This document shows, in pieces, positions 3,871 through 44,017 of a stretch of 64,000 nt of DNA. The position numbers and the translations under genes were made by a program. Within the stretch, counting starts at the first letter, position 1. Every line of letters begins with the position of its first letter. The notes under the pieces are model-generated. The model had not been told where the DNA came from. It saw only the letters and a program-made list of their open reading frames with translations, and searched no databases. This DNA comes from Candidatus Altimarinota bacterium (GTDB lineage Bacteria; Patescibacteriota; Gracilibacteria; BD1-5; UBA6164): contig JAHDCR010000001.1 in the NCBI GenBank assembly GCA_020629795.1, forward strand, positions 24,443 through 88,442, read 5' to 3'.

Positions 3871-3888
3871 ATTTCAAAAATGTATTGG

Positions 3889-3964
3889 AGCGGGGGACCA
3901 GGTTTGAACTGGCACACCCAAGGGTTGAAGCCTTAGTACACTCACTCTTTTATGTTACCCCCGC
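3889..3964 (-). tRNA. tRNA-Gly(UCA), the UGA-decoding tRNA
   Basis: Cloverleaf read on the minus strand. The acceptor stem is GCGGGGG with CCCCCGC, and the discriminator is U73, followed by an encoded CCA (3886-3888). The anticodon arm is UAAGG, loop CUUCAAC, CCUUG, which puts UCA at positions 34-36 after U33. The variable loop is 5 nt (GGUGU). The T arm is GCCAG, UUCAAAC, CUGGU. The D stem is ACAU with GUGU and the D loop lacks the usual GG. U73 with G1-C72 and C2-G71 are bacterial glycine identity elements. A tRNA-Sec would have a long variable arm and a tRNA-Trp would have G73. With the in-frame TGA codons nearby, this is the tRNA that inserts glycine at UGA. Confidence 0.92.
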
Positions 3965-10926: not shown

Positions 10927-10931
10927 AAATA

Positions 10932-17513: not shown

Positions 17514-20500
17514 TTATTCAAAAAATGGAGGAGGGGTAGTTTGTATCACAGGATTGTATTCAATCACAACTGGATATCGTTCATATCATCATGCAACGGC
17601 TGATAGTGATTGGGCTCATGAGCTTTTATCTGGTGGATCATTCCTATCTGCTGTTTCACTGTAGTACATAAAATACCTTCTCAAGTAATTTAGATCATAA
17701 GCTTGAGCTTTTGACTCTGTGTCACAATTTGTTGTTACGTAATATGGACATTCAGGAGTTGCTTTCCTAGAACCACCTATAGTATTCTCACTAAAAATTG
17801 ATCATTTTATATAGAGTTGATTTGCTAGCTCGGCTGCTGTATCACTTCAGTCTAAAACATCAGTACCATTTGTTGTACTAAGTACAGATTTATCCGTATA
17901 TAAAATAGCATGTATATCTGTAAGCGTATTTTTTATAAGTATATTTCCGTTTAAAACGATTATTCATAAAACTCAATTTCAAGTTATATTTCAACTAATA
18001 TATACGTCACCATTTTCTACTAAAAGTGTTTTGTTTCACTGTATAGTATCACCACTTATTTCAACGTCCTGTCCTCTAAAATATAAAACTCTATTTCAAT
18101 ATATTCTTTTTCCATCATTATTTAGGCTCGACCAAGCACTTATTCATCATAATTCATTTACATCTCAACTCCCATTTAACAATTCACTATCTTTTATATT
18201 CTTAATTACCTCGTAAACATTTTTTGCTACATCCCTTCGTAGGGTAGATTTAGTTATTTGTCATATAATCTTGATATCACTAGAAAATTGATTTTCAGTT
18301 AATTCTTGAGAATGTGATGAACTTGTATTACCAAGTATTTTTGCCCCTTCTTGATATGAATTATTTTCTCCTGAAGGTCCTATATAGGTATCTTTTCAGT
18401 AAACGTCACTTGGGTATACAACTGTTTTTCTTGCTGTTCATGTACGAACATCGTATTTCACGATACTAGCTAGATAAGAAAACGTTTCATTCGTTACACT
18501 ACCATCTTGAACCATAAATGTATTTGCATTAAGATAGTTTGGTATAATACCAGAAGATAGATTATATAATTCCGTCGGATTTTGGGGTAATTCACTTATT
18601 GTAGCTCCACTAATTGTAAAACTATATCTAGCATTTTCTATATTTGTTGGATTTGATGGATCTGATTCATCTACATCTCAAAACTCTGCTCTGAGTGAAT
18701 TATTATACGTCGTAATCCCACTATTTGAAACATATATATCTAAATCCTGAATCGCTCATTCCAAAAATCATTGCTGTGTTAATCACCCTAACATGGTAGT
18801 GGCATAGAGAGGAGTAGCTCTAATTGGAGTATATATAAAATCACTTACTCACTGATTTTGTGGTCTATCACCAGTTTCAATTTGCGTACTTGCATCAATA
18901 TCATATGTTACTCATACTATTGCTCCAGATCATAAGACTCTTTCATCAGTATTTGTTGTCGGAGCATATACAAAAAATGGGAGAGTATAAGTTCCATCTG
19001 TTGAAATAATATCATCAAAATTTGAAGGAACTGTATCGCTAGGAGAAGAGGATATACTAATAGGATTTGTTTCAGTTCATACAAATAAAGCCGAATCAGT
19101 TCATGAATTATTATATTGATCAAGACGAATCTCATTAATAGTAGAAATATTTATATCAATATTTCTTCCAATACCTGGAGCATCAATAATAAAGTTCCCG
19201 TACTCATCTGTAAGCGTAACTTCGATTTCTCTACGTGTTCCGTCCGCATAAATTGGTCCAGATAAGTCATTTTTAGAAATACTAGATGCTATATTTGTTG
19301 TATTAGAATAAACAGCATGATTATAAACATTTCAATTTGTAAAATTAGAACAATTCCCTGCTTCATCACAAATCTGAGTTATTATAAAACTATATTCTCT
19401 TGATCAATTTGGTATTCTATCAATATCTACATTCTCTATATTCCAATCAAATCTATACGAATAGGTATTGGCTGGACTAGGTAAGTATGTAACTGACTCA
19501 TTAAAATATTCGGTACTACTTGTATTTGAATGATTTTCTATAGAGTAACTAATATCTTTTACAGGAGATCAACCGTTTTCACTAATTGTAATTCAATAAT
19601 TGTAACTATCATTTGCTAATAAATTTATTGGAACTTCATTTTCAACATCTCCTCTCACATCTGTGCCAACGACTGGATTAAGTGTAGGTGAAACCTTATC
19701 AATTTTTATTATCTGAAGTCCACTATAAGTATATCAATTATTTGCATTATCTCTTACTCTGTAGCATATGTATTCAATTTTATTTGTATTATTTGGAGTA
19801 CTATGAGTATAGCTCGATCCATTGGTCCAACCTCATGATGAACTACAAGAAAAAGAACTACTCGAAACTTTACGTTGAATGTTAGAACATCATGATCATC
19901 AAGTATCAGAGCAAACTACGCTTGAACTTATATTCTCATTAGACCAGGTATCATTAGATATTACACCTACTGTCGGTCAAGATAATGTTGTTGTTAAGGT
20001 TGGAGCAGTTTTATCAATCATAACGTTCGCAGATCTAATAACACTTGCATTCCCATTTCTATCCCAAGTTCTATATCTTAAAACTCTATTTTGCTGAGAA
20101 TTTACTACAACTGAATTTGCCGCTGTACCATCAGAAGGATTGGCAAGAGTGCAGGTACTTCACCAGCAATATCGAGTCGCATTATTTGCAACTCCACTCT
20201 CAACAGTACCATTTGATGAGCTAACAGGTACATCATCAGCTCAAAATGTCACAGTTCCATCTAGATTTGTCCATGTATTATGACGTGAATAAGCCAGTGA
20301 AGAGGTATTTACCGTAGGACGTCAGTCATCCCATCTCCTACAAATAATTCGACTTGTTGCACCATCCCTTCCAACAACCATATCCTCTCAATCACATAAA
20401 GTTATACCATTCGCAATTGTATTCCTAGTGTATTCTCATGCTGATGCAGCATAATAATTATGCGTTCGACAATCAAAACTTCAGGTCACAGCATCTCATG

Positions 20501-20687
20501 CTGCTGTATCAGTCTGAGAGTCTTGTGGTACTGCATTTGAATTACATTGAGTACCTCTGTTAGGACCTCATCCCCTAATTGTGGTAGGAGTAAATGAACC
20601 AGGATTTGTGTATGATACTGCAAATACATCAAGCTGTAATACAGAGAATCAAAGCAAAAGCAAGAAGATATATGTAATTTTTTTCAT
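17514..20687 (-). CDS. Large secreted surface protein with Ig-like repeats
   Basis: 1057 residues. A signal peptide (MKKITYIFLLLLGFSVLQLD, then VFA) is followed by repeats of bacterial Ig-like type, recognisable by linkers such as MIDKTAPTLTT and IKIDKVSPTLNP and by paired Cys. The last 250 residues form a repetitive beta-solenoid-like region (VLYFRGQDVEISGD, LLVENGDVYISGNITGN, LYIKGSIFSENTIGGS). They end in CPYY...CDTESKAQAYDLNYLRRYF, a tail of the kind often found in CPR pilus-linked surface proteins. Likely exported and cell-surface attached. Function unknown. Confidence 0.75.
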
Positions 20688-20752
20688 AATGTATGGAGAA
20701 ATTAGTTTCCTATACATTAATTACATCATATTTCATCTAAAAATACAAGAAA

Positions 20753-21838
20753 CTAGTACTGGACAGTTGGATAATTATGTTTTACCTCTAAAAAATGCTT
20801 TTTTGCCCTCCCTTGTATCTCAGAAACGTCCAATTCTTGTAATAATTTATATTTTTGAATGATAGAATCGCACTGCTTCATCACCTCTAACATATCGTTT
20901 AAAATTAAGTTTCAAGTTTCAGTTGGGAGTAAAAACTTTTTAATGACATTATATCAAAGTTTGTTTTTAATATGATATAAAACTACTTTCTGTTTCCATC
21001 TATAATCACTTATCATTCACTTTTTGATTCATTGAAGTAATACAAACACAGCTGGGACCAAAGCATGTACTCATATTAAAACACCATGAAGTGGCCTAGC
21101 ATCAGGCCTATAAGGAGAATAGTAATTTTGATCACTATTATTGTTGTAAAGAGTTTCTGATTGAGCTATAAGGTTGAATTTATTATGACTTGATTCATGA
21201 ATAAGAGCTTCTATAATATTTAATTCTGGAAAATCAGTATCAATTGTATATCATAAATAAAGAGTACCTATACATTGTCTATAAGTACAAGAGTTATGGA
21301 CACCATGGGAAGTATTCATAGGAATTATTTTTTGTATCATTCATTGTAGCTCCATAAAAAAACTATAATTTATTTCTTTCAGCATCTCAAAAGCTTTTGA
21401 AAAAACTGCGTTCCATTCTTCTGGAGTTTTTTCTCCCCATCACAACATCCCTTCTCATGTATGATCTGGATGATTTATAACGTTATTATCAGGATTATTG
21501 TCATGAAGCGTTAAACGGATTTTAGTTCATTTTATATATTCTCACTGATTATGACATAATGATTTGAAATTTCAGTCAAGAAAGTATTTAAGCTCTTGAT
21601 TAAGTAAGTTTAATTGTGAAACTGTATTTTCATCAGTCAAACGAAGAATAAGAGAAGAAACATCAGACTGTAATAAAAAATCTCTTTGCTTTGAACTCTC
21701 TAGATCTCAAAATCTAGCCCTTAGTCATTCTTCTACATTTATATGAGAAAATAGTGAACTCAGTTTATGATAAAATTTTTCTTTATACTGAACAACCATC
21801 GTATTGTTTTCATATCATAGAACACTTTCTTGAGTCAT
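20753..21838 (-). CDS. HExxH-type putative peptide-modification protein
   Basis: 361 residues. The metal-binding motif HESSH spans residues 214-218 in ALIHESSHNKFNLI, with GEGMLGWGEKTPEEWN at 128-143. This pattern matches the 'HEXXH motif-containing putative peptide modification protein' family, which occurs in RiPP clusters. Some members have been shown to be 2-oxoglutarate-dependent peptide hydroxylases rather than proteases. Here it sits at the edge of an Hxs-type locus with two other oxygenases, so hydroxylation of the precursor is the natural inference. Divergent from the prepilin-peptidase gene (63 bp apart). Confidence 0.75.
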
Positions 21839-21901
21839 ACAACTTTGTTTATAAAGTAAAAATAAATACTATAAGTAAAATTATATAACTTGTTTTTAGA
21901 A

Positions 21902-23152
21902 ATGGAAATATTTATTTGAGCTATGATAGTAAGTATCTTTTGATATTTCAATTTACAAATACTCTTAAGCGATTTCACAGAAAAAAAAATACCTAACAAA
22001 CATATAACAGGACTAATACTATTATTACCACTTTGGTATGTATATAACATATTTTATATAGAGTATGTTGACGTTTGATTATGAATATTAATATGAAAAA
22101 TCCTGGTATCGATGTTTATTAGTTTTTGACTTTATTACTACAGAGTATGGGGAGCTTGAGATTCAAAATATTTCTTTGTATTAACTCTATTTCTCGCTAA
22201 AATTGATCATCTGATATTCCTGTGAAACATAGCTATTGTAACTTTCTGAGTAATGATTTTATACCTACTCTATTTTGTATTTATAAAACTTACATTCTAT
22301 AAAAAATTCAGAGATGACGTATTTTGAATAATAAAAGATGATTATTCTAAATTTCAAGCATCAATAATAAAAAAATCTGAATCTATCATACAGATATTTC
22401 ATCTTATTTTAGGACTCACTATTATATATATCGCTTTGCGTTTTTTTAAAATCATAGTGATTAATTTTACATATCTCCCGAATATTCAAGACATATGGAT
22501 AAAATATACCGAGCATATAATAATATTTATTCTCATATTTTTTATTTTCCTAATTTATATTATTAAATACACCAGTACATATATATTTAGAAAATTAGAT
22601 AATAAATGATTTAATACTCATATAATAAAGTCTTTTTGTCTCTATTTTTTTTCACTATTACTTTTTATCATAATTGTATTTCAGCTTAAAAACAATACGC
22701 AAGAAACGAAAAATATACTCTTTTTACTTTTTACTAGTTATTTAGTACTCTATGCATGAGTGATATGCTGAAAATATTTTTTTACACTTACTTTTCACTC
22801 GAGTGAAAAAGCGAGCATAAAAATTGATAATCTTAAAACAGGTATGATTATTGATCAACATCATATTGAGCATTTATTTAGATGAAGAGAGGTATTAGCA
22901 GATGATATGGAATATAACTTTAAAACAAAAGTACTAGACCTACAAAGTATACAAGCATTGAAAAAAACTATAAAATATATCAATCTAAGCATTGAAAAAA
23001 ATAGAAAAGATGAAAAACCTATTACAGATATAGTAGTCATAAAAACTATTTCTTACTGAATCTTTATTTACACAGGATTTATAGGTACAATGATTTTCTG
23101 AAACACCATCATCAAAAAAATACTAGATTTATTACAATTATTATTTATATAA
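21902..23152 (+). CDS. Prepilin-peptidase (A24)-like membrane protein with long C-terminal extension
   Basis: 416 residues. The first 180 form an A24 peptidase-like domain. The first aspartate is D24 in LLSDFTEKKIPN and the second is D87 in the G-x-G-D motif RVWGAGDSKYF; these are the two catalytic positions of type IV prepilin and preflagellin peptidases. About seven membrane helices lie in two groups. The second half (after about 190) has no counterpart in CpaA/TadV enzymes and has a soluble segment before the last helix. The gene is interrupted by TGA many times, so standard-code calling loses it. It could process the window's many prepilins or the RiPP leader. Confidence 0.75.
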
Positions 23153-23848
23153 TAATTGATCATGATAGGTCTTTCTTTCTCATGAGGAAACTCATTGAAC
23201 TCTATGCCAAGAAATATCTCTTTCACATTTAAAAAATACAAAAGTATTCATAACTGGAGCTATTGATTTATAAGTTATAGCGTTGATATCTCTTAAATTG
23301 TTTTTATATCACAGTTCTAAAGCTCATCACTGTGACTCATTCCAGTCTTCATTTAAAAAAAATACATAACTTCCTGCAACTGTATTTACAGGACCATCAG
23401 TATGCCAAGCTAAATAATCACCTGAATTGTAAATTTGTATGAGACTTCATCTACTCCCTAGTAACGAACGCATAATATTTTCAAGCCTAAATCACAACGA
23501 TATAGGTGTAGAAACAGCCGTATTGTAAAAGTATTCCATATACCGATAAAACGAAGCACTATGAAAAAATCTATATAAGTCAGCAAGGTATTTACCTGAT
23601 ATATAACTTCAAGTTCATTTCTTATATCATTCTTGGTTGGTATAAAACTCTTCATGGTCTCTCTTTCCTACTCTAATATCATTCTTAATTCATTCTATAA
23701 AATCATCTTTGAAAAAATCTGGTAAAGCTAAATGCTTTACATATTTTTGAGAGTAAAAATTCTCCTTTAACCTATGTAAATTATCTTCATCAAGATATCT
23801 ATCTGCTATATATTTTTTTAGAAATATTAGGTCTTTTTTATTGAGCAT
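23141..23848 (-). CDS. 2OG-Fe(II) oxygenase (prolyl-hydroxylase-like), first copy
   Basis: 235 residues. The facial triad is visible: H149 and D151 in LAWHTDGP, and H215 in SWHRVQGV. R225 in GERKTYH is the 2-oxoglutarate-binding arginine. The core strand YVFFLNEDWNESQGGALEL is typical of the prolyl 4-hydroxylase subgroup. It should hydroxylate a peptide or amino acid using O2 and 2-oxoglutarate. Its ATG overlaps the stop of the tandem radical-SAM gene by 11 nt, which indicates translational coupling. Its 3' end overlaps the convergent prepilin-peptidase gene by 12 nt. Confidence 0.85.
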
Positions 23849-25538
23849 TCTTTCAAATTTTATTCAGTAAACTATCAAAATATTTTTTACTCACAGTATC
23901 AATCTCATGTCAGTAAAACTCTAACGAATTATCATTACACCTTCACTTTGTATCTATATCAATGAAGATATTCTTATTTTTTCTCATATTTTCTATATAT
24001 GAAAATGATTTCCCAGAAGCAGCAATAATGTTTTTTACTGCTTGCATAATATCAAATTTAGACCAAGTAATTCATTTTCAAAATATAAGTTCAAAATTAA
24101 TCCTATTCAATCATAATGAGTGTATAAATTCTATATTTTTCGAAATCATAGTAATTTCTTTGGGTGAAAATGCGAGTAACACTATGGTATTATCATGTTG
24201 TAAATATTTTTTATATTTTTGAATTTTTTGCAACACAAGTCCGGAACTATTATCCCTCATATAATCGTTTGTTTCTATTGTACCATTCAACGATATATGT
24301 ATTTCAAAATCATTTTTAGATAAAAAATCAATTATATCATCATCAACAAGCATAAAATTTGTTGCGATCTTTAAATATATATTTTTATGATGATTTTCAT
24401 TTTTTTGATGTATATATCCTACTATTTTTATAAGTAATTTTTTTTCCAAAAGTGGTTCTCATCAAAAAAATGAAAAAGTAATATTGTCTCCTGCTCGTTC
24501 TAAATAAAAATCTACAATATTTTTTGCCTCTGTAAATGAAAGGGTTTCATTTTTAAAATCTACATAACAATAACCACAACGTATATTACATTGTCTAGTT
24601 AGATTGAATCGAACTTCATTAATATCTGGGTTTAGAAAATTAATTTGATTCTTATTAATATATTTATGAAATTTTAAAAATGTTGAATTTAGTTTTTTAT
24701 ATGAAAGAGTTTTTTCTTCTAAATTATCCTTATTATCTAAATACCATCCCACAGGACACACATAAAACCATCTATTTGGATCTTGTTTATAACCTATAGC
24801 ATCTTGAAAATAATCATAGACTCGTTTATAATTAAAATTTTCATACTCTTCTAATGAGCGAAACCTATTACACAGTTTACGGTCTCAAGTCTTGTTATAA
24901 ATATGTTTTTCACATCCATAATCCATTACTTTCAGATAATTTTTTGCGATTCCTCAAATTGAAATATTGTGTCGCAAAATAAAATCTGAAAAATATTTTA
25001 AAATTTTCTCTAAAGCAATTAGGTCTGCTTGATTCCAAGTTGCATATATCTCTGGAGCAAAACAAAAATTTGTAAAACCATACCTTGAAAATTCTAAAAA
25101 TTTTGCTATAGACTGTTTAAAATCTTTCGGGTCAAAAATTATATACAAGGAAATATTATTCTTTAACTCAAGCAATATATCAATTTTTCTTCTGATTTGA
25201 ATAAGAGATCACTCATGCAAAGATATAAGTACTTCTATGTTTGAATAAGAGTTTATAAATGTTATTTTTTCATCATTTAGTAAAATACCATTAGTTATAA
25301 TGGTAAAATTTATATCCGTTTTCTTCAAGCTAACACTTTTGATGATGTCTTTTATATCATTCCATTTCACAAGTGGTTCACCTCATAAAAATTTAATCGC
25401 ATCATAGGATAATAAATCTATTCGCTGAGAAAATTCTGTAGCATTAAAATGTGCGTCCTCTTTTTTTACAACATCAACATAACAATATTCACAATTTAAA
25501 TTGCAAATATCTGTTATATATAAATCTAAGATTTTCAT
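23838..25538 (-). CDS. Tandem double radical-SAM protein
   Basis: 566 residues with two radical-SAM domains in one chain. Domain 1 has C12-x3-C16-x2-C19 (DICNLNCEYCYVDV) and LGGEPLVKW. Domain 2 has C317-x3-C321-x2-C324 (RQCNIRCGYCYVDF) and FFGGEPLLEKK. Between them are extra cysteines (CEKHIYNK, LCNRF, VCPVGW) that resemble a SPASM-like auxiliary cluster site. GGEP in both copies uses TGA for a glycine. The likely role is radical modification of the cluster's precursor. The start ATG overlaps the stop of the upstream oxygenase (TAATG). Confidence 0.85.
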
Positions 25539-26212
25539 TAGTTTTTCTTCATTATTGTTGATTGTATAGATAGACGAAGAGCATTCGTAGTTAACTTACT
25601 CACTCTGTGATATGCATCAGGAGAAGCTAAAATAAGTACTAGAGTATTTTTTTTGTATGGGATAGTCTTATAGCTTGAAATATGACCTGTTTGTCACTTG
25701 TTTCACAAGTCTAAATTTCATCCTTGAGTCTCATCCCAATCTCAACTATATCATCCTAAATAGTACGTAAACGCTCATAGAGATCATTCTGAAATCGGAC
25801 CATCTACATGCCAATCAAAAAAATCTCATTTTTCATATATTTGAGCAATTGCTCAGCAAAAATCATCTTTTCATAAAATTGAATTAATTTCTCACCTATC
25901 TACATAGAATTCTTGTCTCACACTTTTTCACGTAAAAATAGATAAGTATTTTTCAAAAACGGGGCTTTCAAAAAAATTAAATATTTTTCCGAGAGCTTTT
26001 CATTCTAATACTACAGTTTTATTATTTCTATGATGAGAGGAGTGAATATCTACTTTTGTATAGTTTTGATTTTGAATTTCCTTTTCTACCTGTAGATATA
26101 AATCTGAATCAATAAAATTTTCCCAGATAAAATATTGAATTCAATTATTATTATTAGAATCTTGAATCTTTTTTAAAATATGAGATGAATCTAAGTGAGA
26201 TTTTGAAATCAT
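25538..26212 (-). CDS. 2OG-Fe(II) oxygenase (prolyl-hydroxylase-like), second copy
   Basis: 224 residues. The triad is H135 and D137 in FDWHVDGPI and H202 in AYHRVSKL, with R213 in ALRLSIQ. TYYLGGYSGDWDETQGGNLDLG matches the same fold as the other copy in this cluster, but overall similarity is low, so the two probably have different substrates or sites. It is the gene immediately before the tandem radical-SAM gene, with TAATG coupling. TGA codons are dense (more than 15). Confidence 0.83.
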
Positions 26213-26267
26213 AACTAGGCATAAAATTTAAATACATCTATTATACTCAAATAAAAGAGCATACAAG

Positions 26268-26957
26268 TTATATAAAATATATTTCCTGCTTATCTCACTC
26301 ACAACAATAATATGTGATTTTATTTTGAAATACATACTCTGATTTATAACTGTGTTGCTCTATTTCAATAGATCTAAGTATTTCAGGATAGAGAGTACTG
26401 ATATTTATTGGAGTATTGAAGCGAAAAAATATTTTATTTCTCTCTCATGACTTAAGTACTCCGACTTCTTTAATATTTCATTTTTCAATCTTATCAGGAA
26501 GGTTTTTAAAATATACTTTATTCAAATGCACTAGTTCATAGACTTTTAAAGTTATAGATTCATTGTAGATATCGAATCAGATACAATCAAATTTTAAAAA
26601 ATCTTGATTTAAATAATATTTTTGAATATTTAGTATTTTTTTAACTTGAGTTAAGATTTTTAAAGATTGTTTAAAAGAGAGATCATAGAGAGAAATATAA
26701 AATTTCACTCTTCAAGTCTCTATATCCTCTCAAAAATGAAAAGTTGTAACATCTAGTTCAGATATTGAAAAAATTTTTTGTATATTTTTAGTTATAGATT
26801 CATGAAAATTATAACTCATTAATTGTTCATAAATTTTATTTTTATATAACACTTTATCTCAAAAAGATCGATATAGTATCTTAGTAGTACATCATATACC
26901 AAGAACATAAGTCGATTCCAAATTGGTACTTCAGGCTAATTTTTTACAAAGTTTCAT
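26268..26957 (-). CDS. Unrecognised protein of the Hxs-like locus
   Basis: 229 residues, no confident family. The sequence shows four similar segments of the form hydrophobic-G-x-D/x...K-x-Y/F: YVLGIGCTTKILY, HFGEDIETGRVKFYIS, CIGFDIYNESITLKVYE and EVGVLKSGERNKIFFRF. Such periodicity resembles the repeated alpha-beta-beta-alpha units of ABBA-type prenyltransferases, some of which act on RiPPs, but I see no diagnostic residues. It overlaps the TPR gene by 14 nt and so is translated from the same operon. Function left open. Confidence 0.6.
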
Positions 26958-28029
26958 GAGAATCTTTTTTATTTGAAATATATTTAATTTTCTTTAAATA
27001 TCGCTTGACCATATAATTTTCCTTATTTAGATTTTTACTTTTTTCCAAAAAGTCTTTTGCTAATGATATGTTTCATAAGAAATAATAACACATTCATATT
27101 TTGTATATCAGGTATGCATTCTCATTTTCAGTAGTATATCACTTGTAATAATACAACAAAGCAGACTGATAATCTTTTCGTTTGTAATAAATGTTTCATA
27201 TACCATTATTTGCATAACTATCATCTTTTCTTAATTGGAGCGATTGAAGAAAATATTTAAATGATTCATCGTATCTTCAGCTTTTAAATAAAACATTTGC
27301 TATACCGTTATAAGTACAGTAATCATTTGGTATATTTTTTATACTTTTTAAATAAAAATTAAGTGAAATAGTATACTCTTCAAGTTCATAAAATATATTT
27401 CACAGGCAAGTAAAGTCATTGCTCCACTCATTTTTCGATATAAAATGTTGCCTAAAGAAACGTATATTTATACAACTATTAGAATCTCGCTTAATACATT
27501 TTACTATTCAATAATATGCATAAACAAAATCATACTCTAATGCTTGTATAAAGTATGAATAAGCATCTGATATATCTCACTTTTTATAATAAATCATTCA
27601 TATATAGTAGTGGAGTATTCCACTATTTGGATAATTTTTCAAGCTCTCTATATAAATTTTTAAGGCTTTCGTATAGTTTCCAAATATATCCACATGCACC
27701 TGACATTCGAGATTACACAAGTATTCAGAATTATATTTATAATTTATTCTTAATTTTTCAATATCTTCTAAAAGAGTATAAGTATTCCCTTGTGAGAAAT
27801 CTATAAGTAGCTGTATCTCTTTTAATCGGGGACTCTCAATATTTAGAGCTTTTACCTTTGTGATAACTTTCAATGAATCTGAGAATCTCCCCCTTTGAAA
27901 CAAAGAAAAAGATAGCATATATGCTATATCCTCATTAATTTCTGGATTTCATATATAGTCATGAATTAGCTTTATGAGTTGCTCATACTCTCACTTTTCA
28001 AATAAATTATGTACATCTTTATCAATCAT
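26944..28029 (-). CDS. TPR-repeat protein
   Basis: 361 residues made almost wholly of tetratricopeptide-like helix pairs, for example AYMLSFSLFQRGRFSDSLKV, YTKALKIYIESLKNYPNSG and GISYSLFQ-like units later (YDESFKYFLQSLQLRKDDS, DYQSALLYYYKGYTTE). TPR proteins serve as protein- or peptide-binding scaffolds, so here it may hold the precursor or assemble the modifying enzymes. It lies between the asparagine-synthetase-like gene (3-bp gap) and the unrecognised gene (14-nt overlap). Confidence 0.8.
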
Positions 28030-28032
28030 GAG

Positions 28033-29463
28033 TTATATCATATGTTTTTTAAATTCACTCAAAAGTATATTCTTATTATTTGCTAATTTTGAGTCATACA
28101 AGTTTTCAAATTTTATACCTAGATCATATCAGTATTCTCAAGAAACTATTTTAATTCATTTTTCAAATAAAAATTCTTCTGCTTGCTTCCTATAATTTTT
28201 ATCTTTAAAAAATCTGAGTAATTCATAATCGGTAAATGGCAATCTCCTTTCAATACCGCTACGAAGAGATAGTTTATCGATAATTTGCAAGTTATAGTCA
28301 AACATTTCTTTATTTAAAAATTCTTGGCTGATATTGATTACTTCGACTAAATTTTTTTCATAAAAATACTTATAACGTGCAAGGATTGATTTATATGGAT
28401 AGTGATTATTTCAAAGAATGAGTTCTTCTTTTCCATCTCATCAAAACTCTACCTTTATATCTGAGTATTCAGGAAAACTCTTTTTTAAAATTTTATTTAG
28501 ATCAGGTATGTTAACTATACCTTCGTGCGTATACAAATCTTGAGCAGATTGTGTAAACACATAGTCATTCATGTTAATTACTAGGTGTTTTATATTATGC
28601 TTTCTGGCATTTTCACTGGCTATGTTAATATCTTGTGTATTTTTGTCAGTTAAAAAACTGTATGCAATTATCTCTCAACTAAAGTGCTTTTTTAAAAAAT
28701 AAAGAATAAGATTAGAGTCTGGTCACCCGGATAGCCCTAAGAAAATTCGTTTTTGAAAATGAGGAATTCTTCGTATTACACTTTTTTCAAGTGTCTCTAT
28801 AAAATTAGACTGTATATCCCTATATTTATAAGGAGAAAAGTCAGCTATTGAGACCTTATTGTCTTTAAATTCTAAATATGTTCACGGCCTTAATATAAAT
28901 ATATCTTGCAGTATAGTTTGCGGGCTTATTCAAAACTGGAATATCATATGATGAATCATTGATGTTTTTGAGCATACAGGAGCATTTAAAATAAGCGACT
29001 TAATTTCTGAAGCATAAAACAATTCTCATTTATAAATTCTATAATAAACATTATTAACTCCCCATCTATCACGAAATAGTAGTAATTTCTTTTCCTGAAT
29101 GTCATAAATACTTATTGCAAACTCTCAGTTCAAAATATTTACAAAGTCAGCTCACATTTTTTTATATGCTAAAGCTATTATTTGCAGTTCTGTATATATC
29201 TGCTCATGAGAGTCTATAGATAATTGTTGAAGTATATCACTTTTATTATATATTTCTCAAACCAATCAAACTATGATTGTATCTCAAATAAAAGGTTGAG
29301 AAGTATTTTTATCAAGGTCAGATATTTTTAGATGAGCGTGATAAAAAGAATAATTATCAGCAACATAATAATTCTCATCATCAATAGCTCTTTTCTTTAA
29401 AGTAGAAGCTATTTTTTCGATAAGTTTTCTGTTTCAATATGTAAAACCAGCAAATCAACACAT
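28033..29463 (-). CDS. Asparagine synthetase (glutamine-hydrolysing)-like enzyme
   Basis: 476 residues, shorter than housekeeping AsnB (over 500). The N-terminal glutaminase domain starts with the catalytic cysteine (MCGFAGFTYG, C2) and includes RDRWGVN and RPGTYLEF. The synthetase domain has the ATP PP-loop SGGPDS (245-250), followed by EFGGDGKEELILG and IERRLPFTDYELL. In RiPP clusters this family activates carboxylates for macrolactam formation or amidation. Because it sits inside the radical-SAM and oxygenase operon, a role on the peptide is plausible. A plain asparagine supply role cannot be excluded. Confidence 0.85.
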
Positions 29464-29465
29464 TA

Positions 29466-30314
29466 TTATATACTCTTAAAATTATAGCTATTCACATTAC
29501 AAGCATTACAAATTTGTTGCTGTCTTTTTCATTTTTGTGATTCAATAAATTTATCCATATATATATGAAATTTTTCGAAATCTTTATATATTTCTGAGTT
29601 TTTTTGAAAGATATTACTTATAATTATATTTCAAAAACCACATGGAGGCTCATGGAGACGAATATCTCATTTTCATGTAGTTACTTCAAAATAAGAAGGA
29701 AAAAATATAGAGTTATCTATGCTTATCTTATCTTGTGTAAGTCTATATCATTTATGAATAATGCAACCTAATCGATTTAATCTTCATCATCATAAATGCT
29801 TTAATATACGTACTTTTACCGTTCATAGAACATAGTCAATTGGGGAAATTTTCTGAAAACCCAATGCAATAAGCTTAGATATCATATATTCTAAGAGATT
29901 ATGATTTTTATCATCCTTAACCCAGAACATATATTCAATATTATATCACATAAACTGCGGTAAACTCCTAAACATAGTAATCATGCTGCGTTTATCAAGA
30001 TTCATTTGATATAAGAGCTCTACTCGTTTATTATTTTTTAAGAAACGAATATTTTCGTTAACGTTTTTTAAAGAACTATGAAATACTAATTTTAATTCAT
30101 GTACTTGGGTTATTGATATAATTTTTCTTATAAATCTCTCATCTAATAAAAAAAAGTCATAGTTAGAAAGAAAAAACTTTTTTCATAAAAATCATATTTC
30201 ACAGCATCTTAAAATGTTTTTGAAAATTTCTGATTCATTATGAGAAATATTCTCTTTCTTAAAAATATTACAACCAGAACAATTTGAAACACATCAAGAA
30301 GATAGTGGTATCAT
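29466..30314 (-). CDS. Divergent radical-SAM-type protein
   Basis: 282 residues. C8-x3-C12-x2-C15 (GCVSNCSGCNIF) has exact radical-SAM spacing, but at the extreme N-terminus with no preceding strand. The C-terminus has CNACN, a possible auxiliary cluster ligand. The rest (LYQMNLDKRSMITMF, GFQKISPIDYVLG, LHEPPCGFGN) is poorly conserved and lacks a clear GGE motif. It may be a degenerate or specialised maturase. First gene of the minus-strand block that runs to 23141, with its stop overlapping the spacer before the asparagine-synthetase-like gene (2 bp). Confidence 0.6.
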
Positions 30315-30487
30315 AACGGAATATAACCCTTTAATCATTTAGTAGTTTGATTAAATAATTCTGTAATTAATTGTAATTAAAAAAGCCAATAACTCAAATA
30401 TTGTTCTTATTGCTAATCAACAAAAAGAATTAGAGTTTTAGGACATATTATATAAAATACTATTATGTATTTATTGAATATAAATTG

Positions 30488-31624
30488 ATGTCTATAACTA
30501 TAAATCCTTTCAAATGATTCGATAAACAAATATATTTTGTGAAAATTATCATGTGAGAGGCTTGTCCTCTGAGGTGTGATTATTGTTTTGTAGATAAAGA
30601 AAATTGAAGAGTGATTTCAGAAGAACACCTCATGAAACTAATAGACTTATTATTGTACTCACCTGGTCACAATAAGCTTTTACATCTATTATGATGAGAG
30701 CCATTACTTTGTTTTGATCTCATAATAAAGGCTGTTATATATGCTAGAAAGCTAGAAAAGAAATTATGAAAACAGCTCGATATTTCTTTTTGTACGAGTT
30801 GAATTCTGTTTAATCAAACAAAATTAGATATTATTCGAGACCATGATATATATCTCGCTTGGAGTATAGATGGTTCAAAAGAAATTCATGATAGAAATAG
30901 AAAACTTGCAAATTGAAAATGAAGTTATGATCTTATACTCAAAAATAAAGAAATAGTACAAAAAACTATTAAAAATACTCATCTATGAATAGCCATCACT
31001 GTAGACACAAACACTATCAAAGATTTATATAACTCCTATATACATCTTGTTGAAAATGAAGGTTTTGAATGTACTATAAACGTTGCTCCTGTTGATGGTA
31101 AAATATGGCCGATAGAATTACAGAAACTTTTTATAACCGAGCTAGAAAAAATTCATAGCTATATTTTTAATAAAATTTCAGAATGAAAATTCTACTATCT
31201 CAACTCTATGAATAAGGAATTTAGATTTAACATGCTATCAGCGTTTAGAAAAAAAACCGGTAGATGTTTATGGTTTTATACAGAAGCATTTACAAACGGT
31301 GATATACTCTTCAACCCATTTGTAAATCGAGAAGAAGACTATAACAAATATGTTGTTGCTAATATTGGTGATACAGATTTTATTGAAAAAGTTGATCAAT
31401 ATATTGGATGTACTTATTGAGAAGATCAACAAAAATGTCACGATTGTAAAAATGACTATTTTTCTAATATGAAAAATACTCTTCAAGATGTGCAACTAAA
31501 TAATCTTTTAAAATATAGAGACCGAGTATCCATATTATACGCTAATAAAATAAGATTTGAAGCAAAAAATAACGAGCTGTATAAAAACTATATGCAGCTC
31601 GCAAAGGATCATATGTATGTATAA
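30488..31624 (+). CDS. Radical-SAM maturase with SPASM-like C-terminus
   Basis: 378 residues. The 4Fe-4S motif is C26-x3-C30-x2-C33 (EACPLRCDYCFVD). LLGGEPLLCFD follows, with one TGA-coded glycine, and WSIDGSKEIHD is the SAM-contact strand. C-terminal cysteines (RCLWF, IGCTYGEDQQKCHDC) resemble the SPASM auxiliary-cluster pattern. This is the only plus-strand enzyme within the locus and it ends 2 bp before the convergent stop of the membrane-anchored protein. It may occupy the place of HxsC, the second radical-SAM maturase of known Hxs systems, but I cannot assign it firmly. Confidence 0.82.
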
Positions 31625-31626
31625 TA

Positions 31627-32403
31627 TTATTGTGAGGTTGAAGCAAGATATGAATTACACATAGCCCTATCATATTCTCAAAAGAGTACACTACAATAAT
31701 TATTATTTTTTGTAGCTCTATAATGAATAACATAATTATAACATTCTTGACGAGTAAGCTCATCAACTCATGAAATCTCCCCCTCATCACAATGTTTTTT
31801 TGCTTCTTCTAGACTATCAGCAGTTAGAGCTATATGAATTGGCCCATGTCCTAAATTAAGGCTAAATGGGTTTGTTCAGCTAGAAATAATTTCATACTGA
31901 GACGCTATAGTCTCCATGAACGGTTCGCGTAGTTCTTCTCATTCTAAGTTGTCTCCTCAAATATCTTTTAAATCTTGGATATATTTTGGATTATTCTCTT
32001 CAAGGACTTTATTAAAAATAAAGTTATAAAATTTTAGATAATTTTCTCTATCTTTATTTTTTGCAGCATAAATAACAAATAATAATGCTGGGTACTTTTG
32101 AGTGAATTTTTTATAATCTTCATAACTTTCAAGAGCATCAAATTCATTATAAAAATTTTCGTAAACTTTTTCGTTTTGATTCTTATCTACAAGATGATAT
32201 GAATCATAGATATGAGCATCCAGTTCTAATGCGTCTTCTAAAGTTAAGTTTTTTTCCTCTATAAAAGTAACTTCAGATCCTGAAGCAGAATCTATAATAT
32301 TTTCCGGACTAACTCAAGGTGATATCACTTCCCTATAATATAGAACACCAGCTAATATTAAGTTTGTTATCAGTAAAAACAGAATAATATGTATTTTATT
32401 CAT
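31627..32403 (-). CDS. Membrane-anchored extracytoplasmic protein of the Hxs locus
   Basis: 258 residues. One N-terminal hydrophobic helix (MNKIHIILFLLITNLILAG) acts as a signal anchor. A mostly helical acidic domain follows, with HGPIHIALTADSLEEAKKHC and several Cys towards the C-terminus. No family recognised. It lies 21 bp after the precursor gene and is probably on the hxsD-hxsB-precursor transcript. It could be an immunity, export or binding factor for the matured peptide; that is inference only. Confidence 0.65.
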
Positions 32404-32424
32404 AGAATTTGATTAAAAAGAAAA

Positions 32425-32817
32425 TTAACACCAACCTCAACTTCCATGATTTCAATGGCTATTATGACTTGAATGACTTGTTCCGGTAAATTCTGCTTGA
32501 TTGAGGTGTGACATCCCCGTTCTTCAACTATAATTTCAACCGTTAGGTGTTCCACTATAATGACCATTTATAATACCACTTGCATGTGAAGTCCTCGTAC
32601 CACTTATTGCGCTTCAACCTTGATAGCCATTTGCATGAGCTTGTGAGTATGGAGTATTAGTACTGGAATGACCAGCAATTACATCCTCAATACCAGCAAA
32701 AAGTGCAACTCAAGCACTGAGTCAAATTGCATCTTTTTTTGTAATATTCCCACTTTCATCCGTGAGGAAATTTTTCAAAGATTTTTTAAGCTTTGGGAAT
32801 TTCTTATTAATTGTCAT
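32425..32817 (-). CDS. hxsA: Candidate His-Xaa-Ser RiPP precursor (HxsA-like)
   Basis: 130 residues. The N-terminal 45 or so are leader-like: basic (MTINKKFPKLKKSLKNFL), then DESGNITKKDA and a hydrophobic stretch (GLSAGVALFAG). The C-terminal 80 residues are rich in Gly, Ser, Asn and His. All nine histidines (50, 61, 78, 86, 104, 115, 118, 121, 124) are followed by x-Ser or x-Asn: HSS, HAN, HAS, HYS, HLN, HSS, HNS, HGN, HGS. The chain ends GGWC. It directly follows hxsB. At least seven glycines are TGA-coded, so the core can only be made by a UGA-to-Gly cell. Known HxsA proteins have His-Xaa-Ser repeats; this one is shorter and uses Asn as well. Confidence 0.82.
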
Positions 32818-32898
32818 AGTAGTAATTATGAGTATGTATACAAGTATAAAAAGATTTGAGAAAAAGCAAAAAAGCCATATTTACAAGAAGCTATATTG

Positions 32899-34344
32899 TT
32901 ATCTCCCTATCCAAGACATTAAAATTTTAGCATCATCAGGGTTTTGGAGTTTTTCAAAAATAGTATCGAGTATAGCAATTTGAAGTTTCATTTTATCATC
33001 CTTTACGAGAGGAACATACAGACTCCCACTCATTTTATAGTTATGAATTATATCAACTCATAAATACGGTTTATAAACATGGTCATTATAGCCTGGTAAA
33101 CCATCCAAGGTACTTGCCTGAACTGCTATTTTTAAAATTTCACTATTCATCATATTTTTATAGGTTTCAGATCAAGATTGTGTTACTTCTGCCATAAAAA
33201 AAGTATCATCTCACATTCTACCAAGCATCCTAGATTCATCACTTGCATAAATTTTTCCATCAAAATTATATGCTACTCATCAAATAGCTATACCACTAGG
33301 ACTCCTAATATCCATAAAAGAAGGGTCCATAGCATTGAATATTTTTTGCAGATATATCGAAGTTATATTTTCTTTAAATGGTGTTCATTTTTTATTTAGT
33401 TCTAAAATATAATCCAAAGATTCCTTATAAAAATTTTCCCAGTCATCAGGATCATAAGCCAAAGTTTCCATATCACTCGCAGCAAAACCGTATGGATTCA
33501 ACCATCTTAAAAATATCCCATCAAGTCACAGATTGATGTAACTATCTATTATTTCTTTGTATCTTGGTAATGTCTGCTTAGTAACCGTTAATAAAGCTCA
33601 TATTTTTCATAATCATCTTTTTTGTTTTTCTTCATCAACTCTCTTTAACCAATAGGTCACTGTATCAAAACTATCACCTTGGAAACCAGTTCTGTTAGCA
33701 TTATGCGATATTTTATCTCCATCTAAACTACTACAAATATCTACATTATTATCAAACAGCCACTTCAATTTTTCTTCCGTCATTAAAGTGAGATTTGAAA
33801 CTAGTGAAAATCTTAAATCTTTTTGTAAATGCATAGCTCTACTTGAAGCATATTCAACAATATACTGGACTACTTCATAATTTACTAAAGCCTCTCCTCA
33901 CTGAAACTCAATTGTAAGACTTGGAGAATTTGTATACATGATAGCATCCACTACTTTTTTTGCTGTTTCCTTTGTCATATCAAATTCCTTCGCTGTCATT
34001 GGTGCCACTGCAGCGTGGCAATATCTGCATTTGTGATTACAACGGAGTGTTACTACAATCATATGAAGAGTAGGGCCTACTCAAACAAAGTGATTTTTCT
34101 GAGCTACACTTCATGTCATTTTTTCAAGATAGTTTGATTTTTTAATAAATCCCTTTGAAATGAGTTCATTATAAGAATCTAGCTCAGTATGATTTCCGGA
34201 AATAAAATTATGAAAATCACTCATACTTAAAAAATGAAATTTTCAAGCATCATTTGTGATTAGGTATTTTTCTGCATTAAATTTCTTAAAACGAAAATAT
34301 CATAAATCAGAATGTGGTGTAATTTTAGTAGTATCTATATGCAT
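32899..34344 (-). CDS. hxsB: His-Xaa-Ser system radical-SAM maturase HxsB
   Basis: 481 residues. The N-terminal region FRFKKFNAEKYLITNDAGKF is typical of HxsB. It is followed by GPTLHMIVVTLRCNHKCRYC with the cluster cysteines C102, C106 and C109. EFQGGEALVNYE (one Gly is TGA) and CSSLDGDKISHNANR are the SAM and substrate strands. The C-terminus ends with a long helical part rather than the rich SPASM cysteine set. HxsB installs modifications in His-Xaa-Ser repeat peptides; the chemistry is not known to me for this exact member. It lies 3 bp after the small gene and about 80 bp before the precursor. Confidence 0.88.
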
Positions 34345-34347
34345 AAA

Positions 34348-34533
34348 TTAAAGTGAAAGAACGTAATTCATAAACTCCCCGAACACTTCTTGAATCTCCT
34401 CCTCAGATCCTCATGAGATGGATAATAATTCAGAATTATATGTAATATCTGAAACATCAGAAAAGTCAGCTATTGCTTGCTGTATTTTGGCTAGTTGATA
34501 TATCTGTGATGATACTTTAAATTCTAGTGTCAT
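34348..34533 (-). CDS. Small protein between hxsD and hxsB
   Basis: 61 residues, family not recognised. It reads as helix, then strands (DITYNSELLSISGGS), then helix (EEIQEVFGEFMNYVLSL). The ending EFMNYVL recalls the GEFSDELLDVYLR stretch of the adjacent HxsD, so it may be a short HxsD-like paralogue or a leader-binding partner. The 4-bp and 3-bp gaps to its neighbours show that it belongs to the operon. Confidence 0.6.
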
Positions 34534-34537
34534 AGTT

Positions 34538-35098
34538 TTATTTCTTTTTAAACATATTTTTCAAACTCGATACAGAATCTCTACTCACTGTAATACTTGG
34601 TTTTTCAACTTCAGAACTTACCTCATCATCGATTTCCTTGAGTATTTTCTCTATTTCATCTTCATCTATATTTACTTCAGGATCGCTTTCAATTTCTTTT
34701 AAAATTTCATCAATATCTTTATCAAAATCAATCTCATTTTGAAGTGAAACATCTGTATCCAGAGAAACAAAGTTTTTCATATCTATCGGCCCATTTATAG
34801 CCTTAGTTACAATTGTTTCACGTATTACTTTATTATCTTTTTCTAAAGCATCTCTCAGATAAACATCTAAAAGCTCATCTGAAAATTCTCAAATGACAAT
34901 TTTAGGATCAGTATCTATATCTTGCTTTTTAGTGAATTCTAAAATAACATTTTGATTTTCATCAAATCTAAAAAAGAAATATCATTTATCTAAAAAATTA
35001 TATGCTGCTTTGAGGACTATATCCTTTGGGAAAATTTTAGTATCAATTAACAGTTCGAACTTATTTCAAGTGACTATCTCATGTAGAAACTTACTCAT
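34538..35098 (-). CDS. hxsD: His-Xaa-Ser system protein HxsD
   Basis: 186 residues. The N-terminal 105 match HxsD: FPKDIVLKAAYNFLDKGYFFF, then EFSDELLDVYLRDALEKDN and VIRETIVTKAI. A C-terminal extension of about 80 residues is very acidic (DKDIDEILKEIESDPEVNI and a second DEDEIEKILKEIDDE copy) and ends basic (SLKNMFKKK); I do not know this extension from other HxsD proteins. HxsD is small and accompanies the radical-SAM enzymes; a precursor-recognition role is inferred. First gene of the operon. Confidence 0.83.
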
Positions 35099-37606: not shown

Positions 37607-38902
37607 TTATCGAACATATATCCAAGAATCATAATGCCAATTCACATCATATCAGCTATCTCCTGATTCAATTCACCAAGCTCTTGAATCGTATCTAGTT
37701 CATGAAGAATTTCAATCAACTTGTCTAAATGCAATAATATAGATTCCATCATGAGGTGTCGGTCTCAAGCCCCAAAATCCTTCATTACATTGAGAGTTCG
37801 TACTGTAAATATATTCAGAACTTATTGAAGTTTTATAATAAAACTCTCCAGAACTACCTAATAATTGATTTCATGAACAACCAGGCATAAGTGGTCACAT
37901 AAAAAATCCATCTGCATCCCTACTATACTTAAATTGTAAATATCTATTTTGATTATTTGCGGTGATAATATCTGGAGTATCATATGTCACAATCATTTCT
38001 GTATGATTAAAATCTTTCATATTTAAACTATATAATTTATCTGTATCTATTCTTGATGAATTATATATTCAAGTTACCGAATTAAAGTAAATATCTTTTC
38101 ATTCAGTATCGTTATCAATGTGAGCCACAAAAGTCCAACCTCAACCATCTGTAGTCATATCACAATAAACTTCTAACTGTTTATCACCGTTTAAATTAAT
38201 TTTATAAATACCATCATCTGCTGATCCTAATGAGTTTAAAATATTTTTACAAGTTAAATTAGGAACCATTCAAATAAGCTCACTACCTGAGCCTGTAGTT
38301 ATACTTGCATTTGAAGCAAATGATACCAGTAAATCATTAGTAGATAAAATATCATAAGTGCCTTCTTTTATTTCCTGTAGTGGTATTCGAGTATCTTCTT
38401 CAATTAGCACTCATAGTTCAGCTCCTACCACATAAGGATTTAAACTTGAGTAATCGATTGTTTCATCAGCATTTACTTTTGGGTTCAGTGTAATTAAATC
38501 CCTCGAATTATTTTCTTCAAAAAATCAAAGTAGTTGAGCATATTTTCTATCTTCTGACATAAAATATGTATATGGTTGATTATTCTTTGGATCCATTCCC
38601 CCATCAGAGAATTTTATAGTATTAAGGACACCTTCATCAGCATATCACTGGCCTCATACTGGATTTACACCCGATACAATACTAATAGCTTTTTCAGGAA
38701 ATGGGAGCCTAGATCGAGTTGAGTAAAGAGAGAGAGCTTTATGAATTCACGACATCTGTTGTATTCTACTACTATCTCTAACTCCTTTCAAATAATCTGT
38801 GTATGCTACAAATCATAATGTTGAGAGTATCGCTAATATTGATAATACAACTATTAGTTCAACAAGAGTAAAAGCTTTTCATTTATTATTTTTCATATTC
38901 AT
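37607..38902 (-). CDS. Tandem pseudopilin 6 (last of array)
   Basis: 431 residues from MNMKNN. Prepilin signal GKAFTLVELIVVLSILAILS. The pilin body contains a conserved block seen through the array (KQGYADEGVLNTIKFSDGG-like; LEEDTRIPLQEI). The fibrinogen-like part is GIYKINLNGDKQLEVYCDMT with TDGGGWTFV, and the chain ends WIYVR. Closest in layout to the copy at 40195-41472 (SRIQQMSGIHKALSLY). Probably a minor pilin or pilus-tip protein. A second ATG 6 bp further in is possible. Confidence 0.85.
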
Positions 38903-38904
38903 TA

Positions 38905-40188
38905 TTATCTAACGTAAAACCAAACACTATGACCAAATCATTGGGATCCTAATCCAGTTGGATCCCAAGCTTGTGGTCTCCATTCAGTTCCAAAAGTTGA
39001 TCAACCAGAATCTCTCGTCCTAAGCAAATATGTTCATCCTGGATTATAAACCTTTGGTCGTAACCACCATCAGTTTGAGTCACAACTTCAAACATTACTC
39101 CATATAGGTTCTGATCATAAATACATTTGATGAAAAAAACCATCTGACTTTCAAAAATTATCACTACAATTCATTAAATCATCTGTGTGAAACATTTCTG
39201 CATCTAATCAATACCTCAGGAGTAAAAAACGATCATTTTCATTTGCAATAACAGGATCACTTGTATCTATTAGTGCCATCATCTCCTCATGTCATAATCA
39301 GTCCATAGCAATAAAATATTCTTCTCATGAGTCTGTTCTATTTGAGTCATATACTCATGTTCAGGTTTTAAATCGTATCTCCGACGTTCTAGTGCTACCA
39401 TCAATAAATCAAGCAAAAGTCCATCATCACCCCTCTGTTTCCATGTCACAGTATACTTGAGTTTTTGTAGATCCAGCTAACGATATTACATATTTTCAGT
39501 TTCATTTAGAGTTTCCTAATTCAAGAATTCTTTCACAAGAAATATCTGGTATAATCAATGATATATTGTCTCATTGATTAGTAGAGAGTCTATTATCATC
39601 ACTCAGATAGGATATAATTGACTCTGATCCACTTACTACATCATAAACTCCAGAAATCTTATAAGCTTCTATCGATTGTATTGGAGCATTACTCCCTTCA
39701 TCAACAAGTACTCCTAATGGTGATCCTAAAACTTTTGGAAACATAGAACTATAATCTTGAGCAGCATATCATTGAGATGTAACAAAATTACCTAATAAAT
39801 CTCTATCATCTGTATAAGTCATAAGCTGAAAATCTCTACCGTTATTACTTAACATATATGTTAAATACGTGTCATATTCTATATCCTTTCATCCCCCATC
39901 ATATCATACTATTTTAATAGTATTTTCCCCCGCATATCATTGATATGCAAAAGTATTTCCACTAGCTTGAATTTCTATCATTTCTTCTGGATATGGGAGT
40001 TTAGAACTAATAGAATATGTGTACATACCCTCATACATTTCACTCATTTGAAGCAATCTATTTGTATCTCTCGAATCTCATAAATACGACTGATACGCTC
40101 ATAATCATATAACACTTAAAATCACTAATATAGTTATAACAACTATGAGTTCTACAAAGGTAAATGCTTTTATATTTTTTATATTCAT
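38905..40188 (-). CDS. Tandem pseudopilin 5
   Basis: 427 residues. Starts MNIKNIKAFTFVELIVVITI with the prepilin Glu. The body contains DTNRLLQMSEMYEGMYTYSI and the block VLVDEGSNAPIQSIEAYKIS. The fibrinogen-like motif reads VYCDMETEGGGW. The chain ends VWFYVR. Its stop is 2 bp from the next gene's start. Similar to the copies at 41482 and 44018. Confidence 0.84.
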
Positions 40189-40194
40189 ATTATA

Positions 40195-41472: not shown

Positions 41473-41481
41473 TTTAATATT

Positions 41482-42693: not shown

Positions 42694-42696
42694 ACT

Positions 42697-44001: not shown

Positions 44002-44017
44002 ATTTGTGTATTAAGTT

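Follow-up and report, generated by a model that had tools for sequence, protein, structure and literature searches.

A His-Xaa-Ser peptide locus with a recurrent core and a differing tailoring middle in a UGA-recoded Gracilibacterium

Introduction

His-Xaa-Ser (Hxs) systems, comprising HxsA, HxsB, HxsC and HxsD, are credited to Haft and Basu in passages of PMC9062424, which also report clusters for ribosomally synthesized and post-translationally modified peptides (RiPPs) with three to five radical S-adenosylmethionine (SAM) genes. Going by title, that paper and PMC8446631 are the only ones among the matches listed that have Hxs genes as their subject. Here we analyse an Hxs-type locus in a 64,000-nucleotide stretch of DNA from a Candidatus Altimarinota bacterium ('the window', part of contig C13 of a 1.11 Mb genome in 22 contigs). 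With the Hxs systems (TIGR03976 to TIGR03978, HxsA2 to HxsA4) it shares HxsB and HxsD over their cut-offs, a His-Xaa-Ser precursor and a related leader; it differs in having no HxsC by model, an additional HxsD-like gene, a precursor that scores under its cut-off, a large variable tailoring middle, and an HxsB without auxiliary-cluster ligands. We consider it probable that the locus combines a recurrent Hxs core, a tailoring middle that differs among relatives and a partly conserved distal end, and that it makes a heavily modified, exported peptide. A chemically diversified product is predicted because dozens of relatives have the core, whereas most tailoring genes differ by species.

Enlarged hxsB loci exist elsewhere. 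A first-pass annotation, made from the DNA letters alone, held that known Hxs systems have only HxsA–D; this was too narrow, as at least three other radical-SAM genes lie nearby in 18 of 71 fetched hxsB loci not titled Gracilibacteria (rough gene calling; 15/54 where HxsB itself was picked), and NCBIfam holds HxsA3, HxsA4 and an HxsD-like family. Such loci from Elusimicrobia, Omnitrophota and two genomes of the candidate phyla radiation (CPR), G348 and G273 (G and L numbers denote genomes and loci), resemble the window in their several radical SAMs, their leader type and, in some, a peptidase-like gene. A like leader occurs in many of the 71 loci, and a peptidase-like relative in nine. G348 and G273 differ from the window in their standard genetic code and in an HxsB with all seven SPASM cysteines. 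The Nitrilobacillin pes cluster, as far as described in excerpts of PMC13060819, likewise unites an asparagine-synthetase (AS)-like enzyme and an alpha-ketoglutarate HExxH enzyme in one RiPP cluster; unlike the window, it has no hxsB named there, an MNIO enzyme and a precursor C-terminal R(V/T)DN motif.

The first pass knew of no description of the combination in the window, and a full-text literature search found none, nor any of middle swapping in Gracilibacteria, of stepwise SPASM-ligand loss in HxsB or of an ABBA-type enzyme in an Hxs locus. Since most subscription-journal papers fall outside such a search, its silence is weak evidence that they are undescribed. A word search of the main text of PMC6851277, on a Gracilibacterium of 1.343 Mb (sample BD02T64), found neither 'radical' nor 'SPASM'.

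A core that recurs among relatives

The locus is beyond chance: HxsB matches its model at E 1e-143, and the core was found again in dozens of relatives. HxsB passes its cut-off in three of 379 genomes of an even phylum sample (the source genome and the standard-code G348 and G273) and is found in 48 of the 77 genomes of the source's taxonomic order (E 1e-71 or better; one more, G386, has a weak match). Its occurrence within the genus is patchy: six of eight genomes carry it, including the source, and it is absent from G383 (97% complete) and G384 (77%). The named relatives are Candidatus Gracilibacteria; one of them, 28_42_T64, has a closed chromosome (CP042461.1).

Sixty-five stretches of UGA-recoded relatives were compared, which gave 50 loci or fragments once adjoining ones were merged. 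The gene order hxsD, hxsD-like, hxsB, hxsA recurs among them, and in several relatives' loci it stands directly after ATP synthase genes. The hxsD-like gene keeps its place in relatives and likewise in G348 and G273, and an alignment shows the Gracilibacterial form of HxsD to have an extra acidic C-terminal region. Neighbours were expected to be conserved beside hxsB if the first-pass reading was right; this holds for the core and partly for the distal end, and does not for the particular middle, the exact gene set differing from relative to relative.

Genes of the locus

With TGA read as glycine the window is full of long open reading frames (ORFs), whereas under table 11 the longest has 208 aa, which bears out the first-pass claim of a UGA-recoded bacterium. 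A tRNA at 3886–3964 (minus strand), assigned as SeC and bearing the anticodon TCA, is likely the UGA-decoding glycine tRNA in this code.

We observe the following genes, given in order from the hxsD end of the locus:

34538..35098, minus: hxsD, 186 aa, ATG start (TIGR03976, 58.8 bits; cut-off 50)
34348..34533, minus: small second, hxsD-like gene, 61 aa (NF038315 HxsD_rel, 38.5 bits; below cut-off 41)
32899..34344, minus: hxsB, radical SAM (TIGR03978, 479.5 bits; cut-off 370)
32425..32817, minus: hxsA-type precursor, 130 aa (NF038309 HxsA3, 35.4 bits; below cut-off 65)
31627..32403, minus: membrane-anchored protein in the slot after hxsA, 258 aa, N-terminal hydrophobic segment
30485..31624, plus: PapB-like radical SAM, 379 aa, CPLRCDYC (PF04055 over, NF047865 below cut-off)
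29466..30338, minus: cryptic radical SAM, 290 aa, CVSNCSGC (no model match)
28033..29463, minus: AS-like enzyme, 476 aa (PF13537 and PF00733 over gathering score)
26944..28029, minus: tetratricopeptide repeat (TPR) protein, 361 aa (Pfam TPR families)
26268..26957, minus: predicted ABBA-fold prenyltransferase, 229 aa (AlphaFold2 model and fold matches; no Pfam match)
25538..26212, minus: 2-oxoglutarate (2OG)-Fe(II) oxygenase, 224 aa, HxD...H (PF13640, 38.8 bits; cut-off 27)
23838..25538, minus: tandem radical SAM, 566 aa, two CxxxCxxC motifs (PF04055 in two stretches)
23141..23908, minus: 2OG-Fe(II) oxygenase, 255 aa, HxD...H (PF13661, 53.1 bits; cut-off 27)
21890..23152, plus: prepilin-peptidase-like membrane protein, 420 aa, D28, AGD91xK (PF01478, 20.5 bits; below gathering score 26.5)
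20753..21838, minus: alpha-ketoglutarate HExxH peptide beta-hydroxylase, 361 aa, HESSH (TIGR04267, 55.1 bits; cut-off 40)
17514..20717, minus: large surface protein, 1067 aa, the distal end marker (homologs in relatives lie at the far end of their loci)

The hxsB and hxsD named at first pass thus match their curated models, with a His-Xaa-Ser precursor next in order, and all the tailoring genes it named (radical SAMs, 2OG, HExxH, AS-like, TPR and peptidase-like) are present, which bears out its reading of an Hxs-type locus with far more tailoring genes than HxsA–D in a CPR bacterium. Its interval, 20753..35098, ends at the hxsD ATG and stops short at the distal end, before the surface protein; that gene, the hxsD-like gene and the membrane-anchored protein had gone unnamed. 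The gene at 29466–30338 is read as a cryptic radical SAM because of the CVSNCSGC near its start, though it matches no family.

A tailoring middle that differs among relatives

The middle of the locus differs even where the core is alike. Across 610 locus pairs with HxsBs 40–90% identical, the median share of middle genes with a 40% identical partner was zero in every HxsB identity bin, and the mean shared fraction ran from 0 to 8%. Of the 25 pairs whose HxsBs are closest to each other (78–89%), 21 have no middle gene in common; the same is true of the complete pairs G381–G385 and G390–G404 (HxsB 79% identical) and of the window and G382 (HxsB about 78–79% identical; the G382 locus is cut at 6.5 kb). 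Relatives of individual window genes occur elsewhere: G424 has the PapB-like radical SAM at 62% and the AS-like enzyme at 54% identity, and the cryptic radical SAM has weak relatives in G399 and G402. Automatic gene picking missed the window hxsA and the G424 tandem radical SAM, both of which were recovered among all ORFs.

Fifteen of the 46 loci with a usable HxsB (window included) reach the surface-protein marker, and their tails contain from 0 to 15 radical-SAM genes; tails without the marker may take in genes outside the locus or miss genes. In nine of the 15 the HExxH and the peptidase-like gene both precede the marker, in two (G392, G403) the peptidase-like gene alone and in one (G420) the HExxH gene alone. 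Across the order, the HExxH gene is present in 26 of 48 genomes with HxsB versus two of 29 without, and the peptidase-like gene in 30/48 versus 2/29. Among the 118 of 180 listed non-radical-SAM tail proteins that were scanned are matches to carbamoyltransferase, YcaO, AS-like, B12 radical-SAM C-methyltransferase, MiaB/RimO, sugar aminotransferase and PIG-L deacetylase families, and to the NifH family (two proteins) and nitrogenase component 1 (three). NifH-like P-loop proteins lie in Hxs tails at L061:92-907 (G390), L182:13120-13938 (G432) and L173:15268-16086 (G444).

Could the tailoring genes be an unrelated radical-SAM island that adjoins a small Hxs core by chance? Middles that differ among relatives would suit such an arrangement, as would the separate short contigs on which the cassette parts lie in G400; however, across the order the presence of the HExxH and peptidase-like genes goes with that of HxsB, the precursor C-terminus tracks the cassette (see below) and a single precursor was recognized in the window locus, all of which makes this explanation very improbable.

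The precursor and its GGWC terminus

Window HxsA has a leader with FLTDESG and a hydrophobic helix, a VIA immediately ahead of the core, the mid-motif SHASGIINGHYS, six HxS triplets and a GSGGWC C-terminus that holds its sole Trp and sole Cys. Among 41 precursors, 39 have a DESG-type leader motif, 36 an NGH mid-motif and 36 a small-x-Ala site 18–33 residues past the leader motif, which we take to be a signal-peptidase-I-like pattern. The leader pattern missed G444, whose motif has one change, and no precursor came from G401, G435, G416, G394, G407b, G440 or G451, nor from the fragments G400x, G400y and G412b. The 38 intact C-termini (G418, G408 and G410 being unreadable there) comprise 12 GSRW, six HGQW, four GGWC and others.

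The four GGWC precursors, those of the window, G380, G413 and G424, belong to exactly the four of 38 loci that have a tandem radical SAM (p 1.4e-5, uncorrected for kinship), and these loci occupy four separate places on the HxsB tree. The AS-like gene is found in the window, G380, G424 and one G400 fragment, and the prenyltransferase in four of the 77 genomes of the order (window, G413, G424 and G400). G348 has radical SAMs related to the cassette together with a relative of the prenyltransferase, and GGWC ends one of its two precursors.

Off the HxsB contig, G400 contigs C430 and C493 (L177, L195) are RiPP-like fragments with genes of the AS-like, 2OG-like (two), prenyltransferase-like and tandem radical-SAM kinds; MiaB-like, TPR-like and YcaO-like proteins were recognized there by eye. 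At L037:1503-3068 and L155:11562-13016, His-Xaa-Ser precursors are extended by a domain of ~300 aa that is similar in both loci.

A Flp/Tad-pilin origin of the leader was considered for its FL-DESG and helix, and rejected: the Pfam matches of 10 precursors include no pilin family, even at E 10. This leader is kept solely as a reason to name the peptidase-like gene a candidate leader protease. It is also unlikely, in our judgement, that the product serves at the surface as a metal-binding or structural peptide, with His-Xaa-Ser repeats that bind metal and a surface protein that displays or anchors it. Up to 27 HGS repeats in one relative's precursor would agree with that role, as would the surface protein and frequent prepilin-peptidase-like gene at the distal end, but the strong divergence of the tailoring genes would be left unexplained and the window's own repeats are few.

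Loss of auxiliary-cluster cysteines in HxsB

Window HxsB keeps the CxxxCxxC motif and none of the seven SPASM cysteines, having S350, S368, Y419, H422, L428, D431 and M452 instead. The assignment of these positions follows a SPASM peptide cyclase with three auxiliary cluster I (AuxI) and four auxiliary cluster II (AuxII) ligands, as given in excerpts of PMC5491770: the seven cysteines of G348 HxsB match them in order and with closely similar spacing. Of 47 Gracilibacterial HxsBs, all with CxxxCxxC, 28 have the three AuxI positions only, 17 have none (counting G435, which lacks the C-terminal part) and two (G407b, G451) have all seven; there are no intermediate states. On the HxsB tree, no member of a 45-member clade (support 0.99) has AuxII, and a single clade of 17 members inside it (support 1.00) also lacks AuxI. 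Judged from these sequences, the SPASM cluster cysteines disappeared from HxsB in two steps, each of them clean.

Among 56 outgroup HxsBs, 46 have all seven cysteines, five lack the AuxI set only, three have one AuxI cysteine left and two lack one AuxII cysteine, one of the latter also lacking all of AuxI. In four myxococcal or deltaproteobacterial HxsBs (L123, L136, L137, L149) only the AuxI set has been lost and AuxII persists; in Gracilibacteria the loss ran in the opposite order.

HxsB in the window might no longer be a catalyst: without both auxiliary clusters it would be a scaffold that presents HxsA to other radical SAMs, of which the tails have plenty. This would fit the alteration of all seven positions, the change of the GGEP motif to GGEA or GGES in 35 of 49 HxsB entries listed, and the very low activity of two of three single auxiliary-cysteine mutants in excerpts of PMC5491770, where the third, C437A, behaves like wild type. 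A dead scaffold, however, need not keep CxxxCxxC in 47 of 47 sequences or its high identity to the G382 protein, and we regard this role as improbable. Passages of a review (PMC9012708) still call the role of AuxII unclear.

Other enzymes and the protein after hxsA

The 229-aa protein listed as unrecognized at first pass is a predicted ABBA prenyltransferase: its AlphaFold2 model (pLDDT 90.3, pTM 0.88) supports the fold, as do its Foldseek and VIA matches. ABBA prenyltransferases have phosphate-binding Lys, Arg and Tyr residues; as positions in an alignment, K138 and Y140 are present in 16 of 17 sequences (the 17th is gapped there) and R83 and K85 in 12 of 17. The RiPP prenyltransferases PatF, LimF, KgpF and PagF and the Trp prenyltransferases CymD and PriB are about 10% identical to the window protein, which differs from them in its 229 aa, its lack of a Pfam match and its place beside an Hxs locus.

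The AS-like protein begins with Met-Cys. According to excerpts of PMC13060819, RiPP AS-like enzymes convert C-termini to amides or nitriles or make lactams, and His, Asp, Phe, Gln or Pro are hydroxylated by HExxH enzymes; backbone cleavage by one HEXXH enzyme is described in the abstract of PMC12636437.

A24 prepilin peptidases have two catalytic Asp residues. D28 and D91 of the peptidase-like protein are present in 26 of 26 aligned relatives from Gracilibacteria, G348 and other phyla. Near the Hxs locus, at 37607–45340 (minus strand), there is a tandem run of six genes; every one matches the type IV pilin N-terminal methylation motif and a fibrinogen-C domain (two of the 12 matches are just under cut-off). 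The peptidase-like protein could have such pilins as its true clients. Two similar large proteins are encoded at 9385–13697 (minus strand), one of 513 aa with a pilin methylation motif and one of 921 aa with a fibrinogen-C match.

A protein with a membrane or lipoprotein N-terminal segment comes after hxsA, no more than three genes away, in 25 of 32 loci of relatives (a count that excludes the window, whose hxsA is missing from the tail list). Chance would place one there in about one locus in ten, because only 10 of the 322 other tail genes of 150 aa or more encode such a protein. These slot proteins diverge fast, the window's having weak homology to that of G413. Their position and divergence would suit proteins that confer immunity to, or act as receptors for, a bacteriocin-like or host-directed peptide, and a middle that is swapped fits an arms race. 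On the other side, the slot protein could equally well be a maturation or anchoring partner, and no toxin or transporter gene was recognized among the scanned window-locus proteins; a bacteriocin-like or host-directed product, with the slot protein as its immunity or receptor protein, is in our view unlikely.

Weighing of the evidence and proposed pathway

Several observations tell against a cassette locus built on an Hxs core. As regards the core, HxsC passes TIGR03977 in 0 of 76 genomes of the order (G000 at best E 1.4e-9; distant relatives in 59 of 76 at E 1e-3), so that this is not a four-gene Hxs system and, with window HxsA also failing the HxsA3 model, not a canonical HxsABCD. All the same, the locus likely works like one. 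The AlphaFold2 model of HxsD is confident for the N-terminal domain only, and a fold search with it gave no clear match. As regards the cassette, the sole precursor found in G400, whose cassette pieces lie on two short contigs, ends in HGSRW; five Elusimicrobia loci (L134, L138, L150, L154, L160) have GGWC without a detected prenyltransferase or close kin of the two radical SAMs; and, among the loci with GGWC, the fetched G413 locus yielded no AS-like gene and G380 no prenyltransferase. GGWC as a universal cassette mark is rejected by the five Elusimicrobia loci. Swapping is not universal either, because the middles of G389, G407 and G452 are largely alike and other pairs share a little (four genes between G425 and G403), and many tails end at contig ends. 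The distal end is likewise not universal: G380, G424 and G451 reach the marker without an HExxH or peptidase-like gene. Clean cysteine loss is no rule outside the clade, because three outgroup HxsBs keep one of three AuxI cysteines. Finally, export is predicted for a locus in which no transporter gene was recognized among the scanned proteins.

The best-supported account is an Hxs-type locus that joins a constant recognition core to exchangeable tailoring cassettes; how it works, from the chemistry and the removal of the leader to export and role, is inferred. HxsD, the HxsD-like protein and HxsB would bind the conserved HxsA leader in its FLTDESG region, and HxsB would modify the His-Xaa-Ser repeats with its SAM cluster alone, as proposed because all auxiliary-cluster cysteines are gone. 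The tandem and PapB-like radical SAMs, the AS-like enzyme and the ABBA prenyltransferase would likely target the C-terminal Gly-Gly-Trp-Cys, and the 2OG and HExxH enzymes may hydroxylate the HxsA core. The leader may be removed at the membrane by the prepilin-peptidase-like protease, by signal peptidase I (at the VIA before the core), or by both, and cassette swapping would give each species its own product. A broader and more tentative proposal, which we regard as possible, is a factory in which a constant Hxs core and leader work with tailoring sets that can be exchanged (as many as 15 radical-SAM and other enzymes), each species displaying or releasing its own chemically distinct peptide towards host or rivals, with HxsBs forming a series from three clusters to two to the SAM cluster alone. 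A role of the product against host or competitors is speculation.

If the proposal is true, these genomes of near 1 Mb would contain some of the densest radical-SAM peptide-tailoring repertoires known to us. The natural series within one family, from HxsBs with all clusters through those with AuxI only to those with none, offers a way to test the function of SPASM auxiliary clusters, and the locus gives a handle on a possible chemical interaction of Gracilibacteria with their hosts or rivals.

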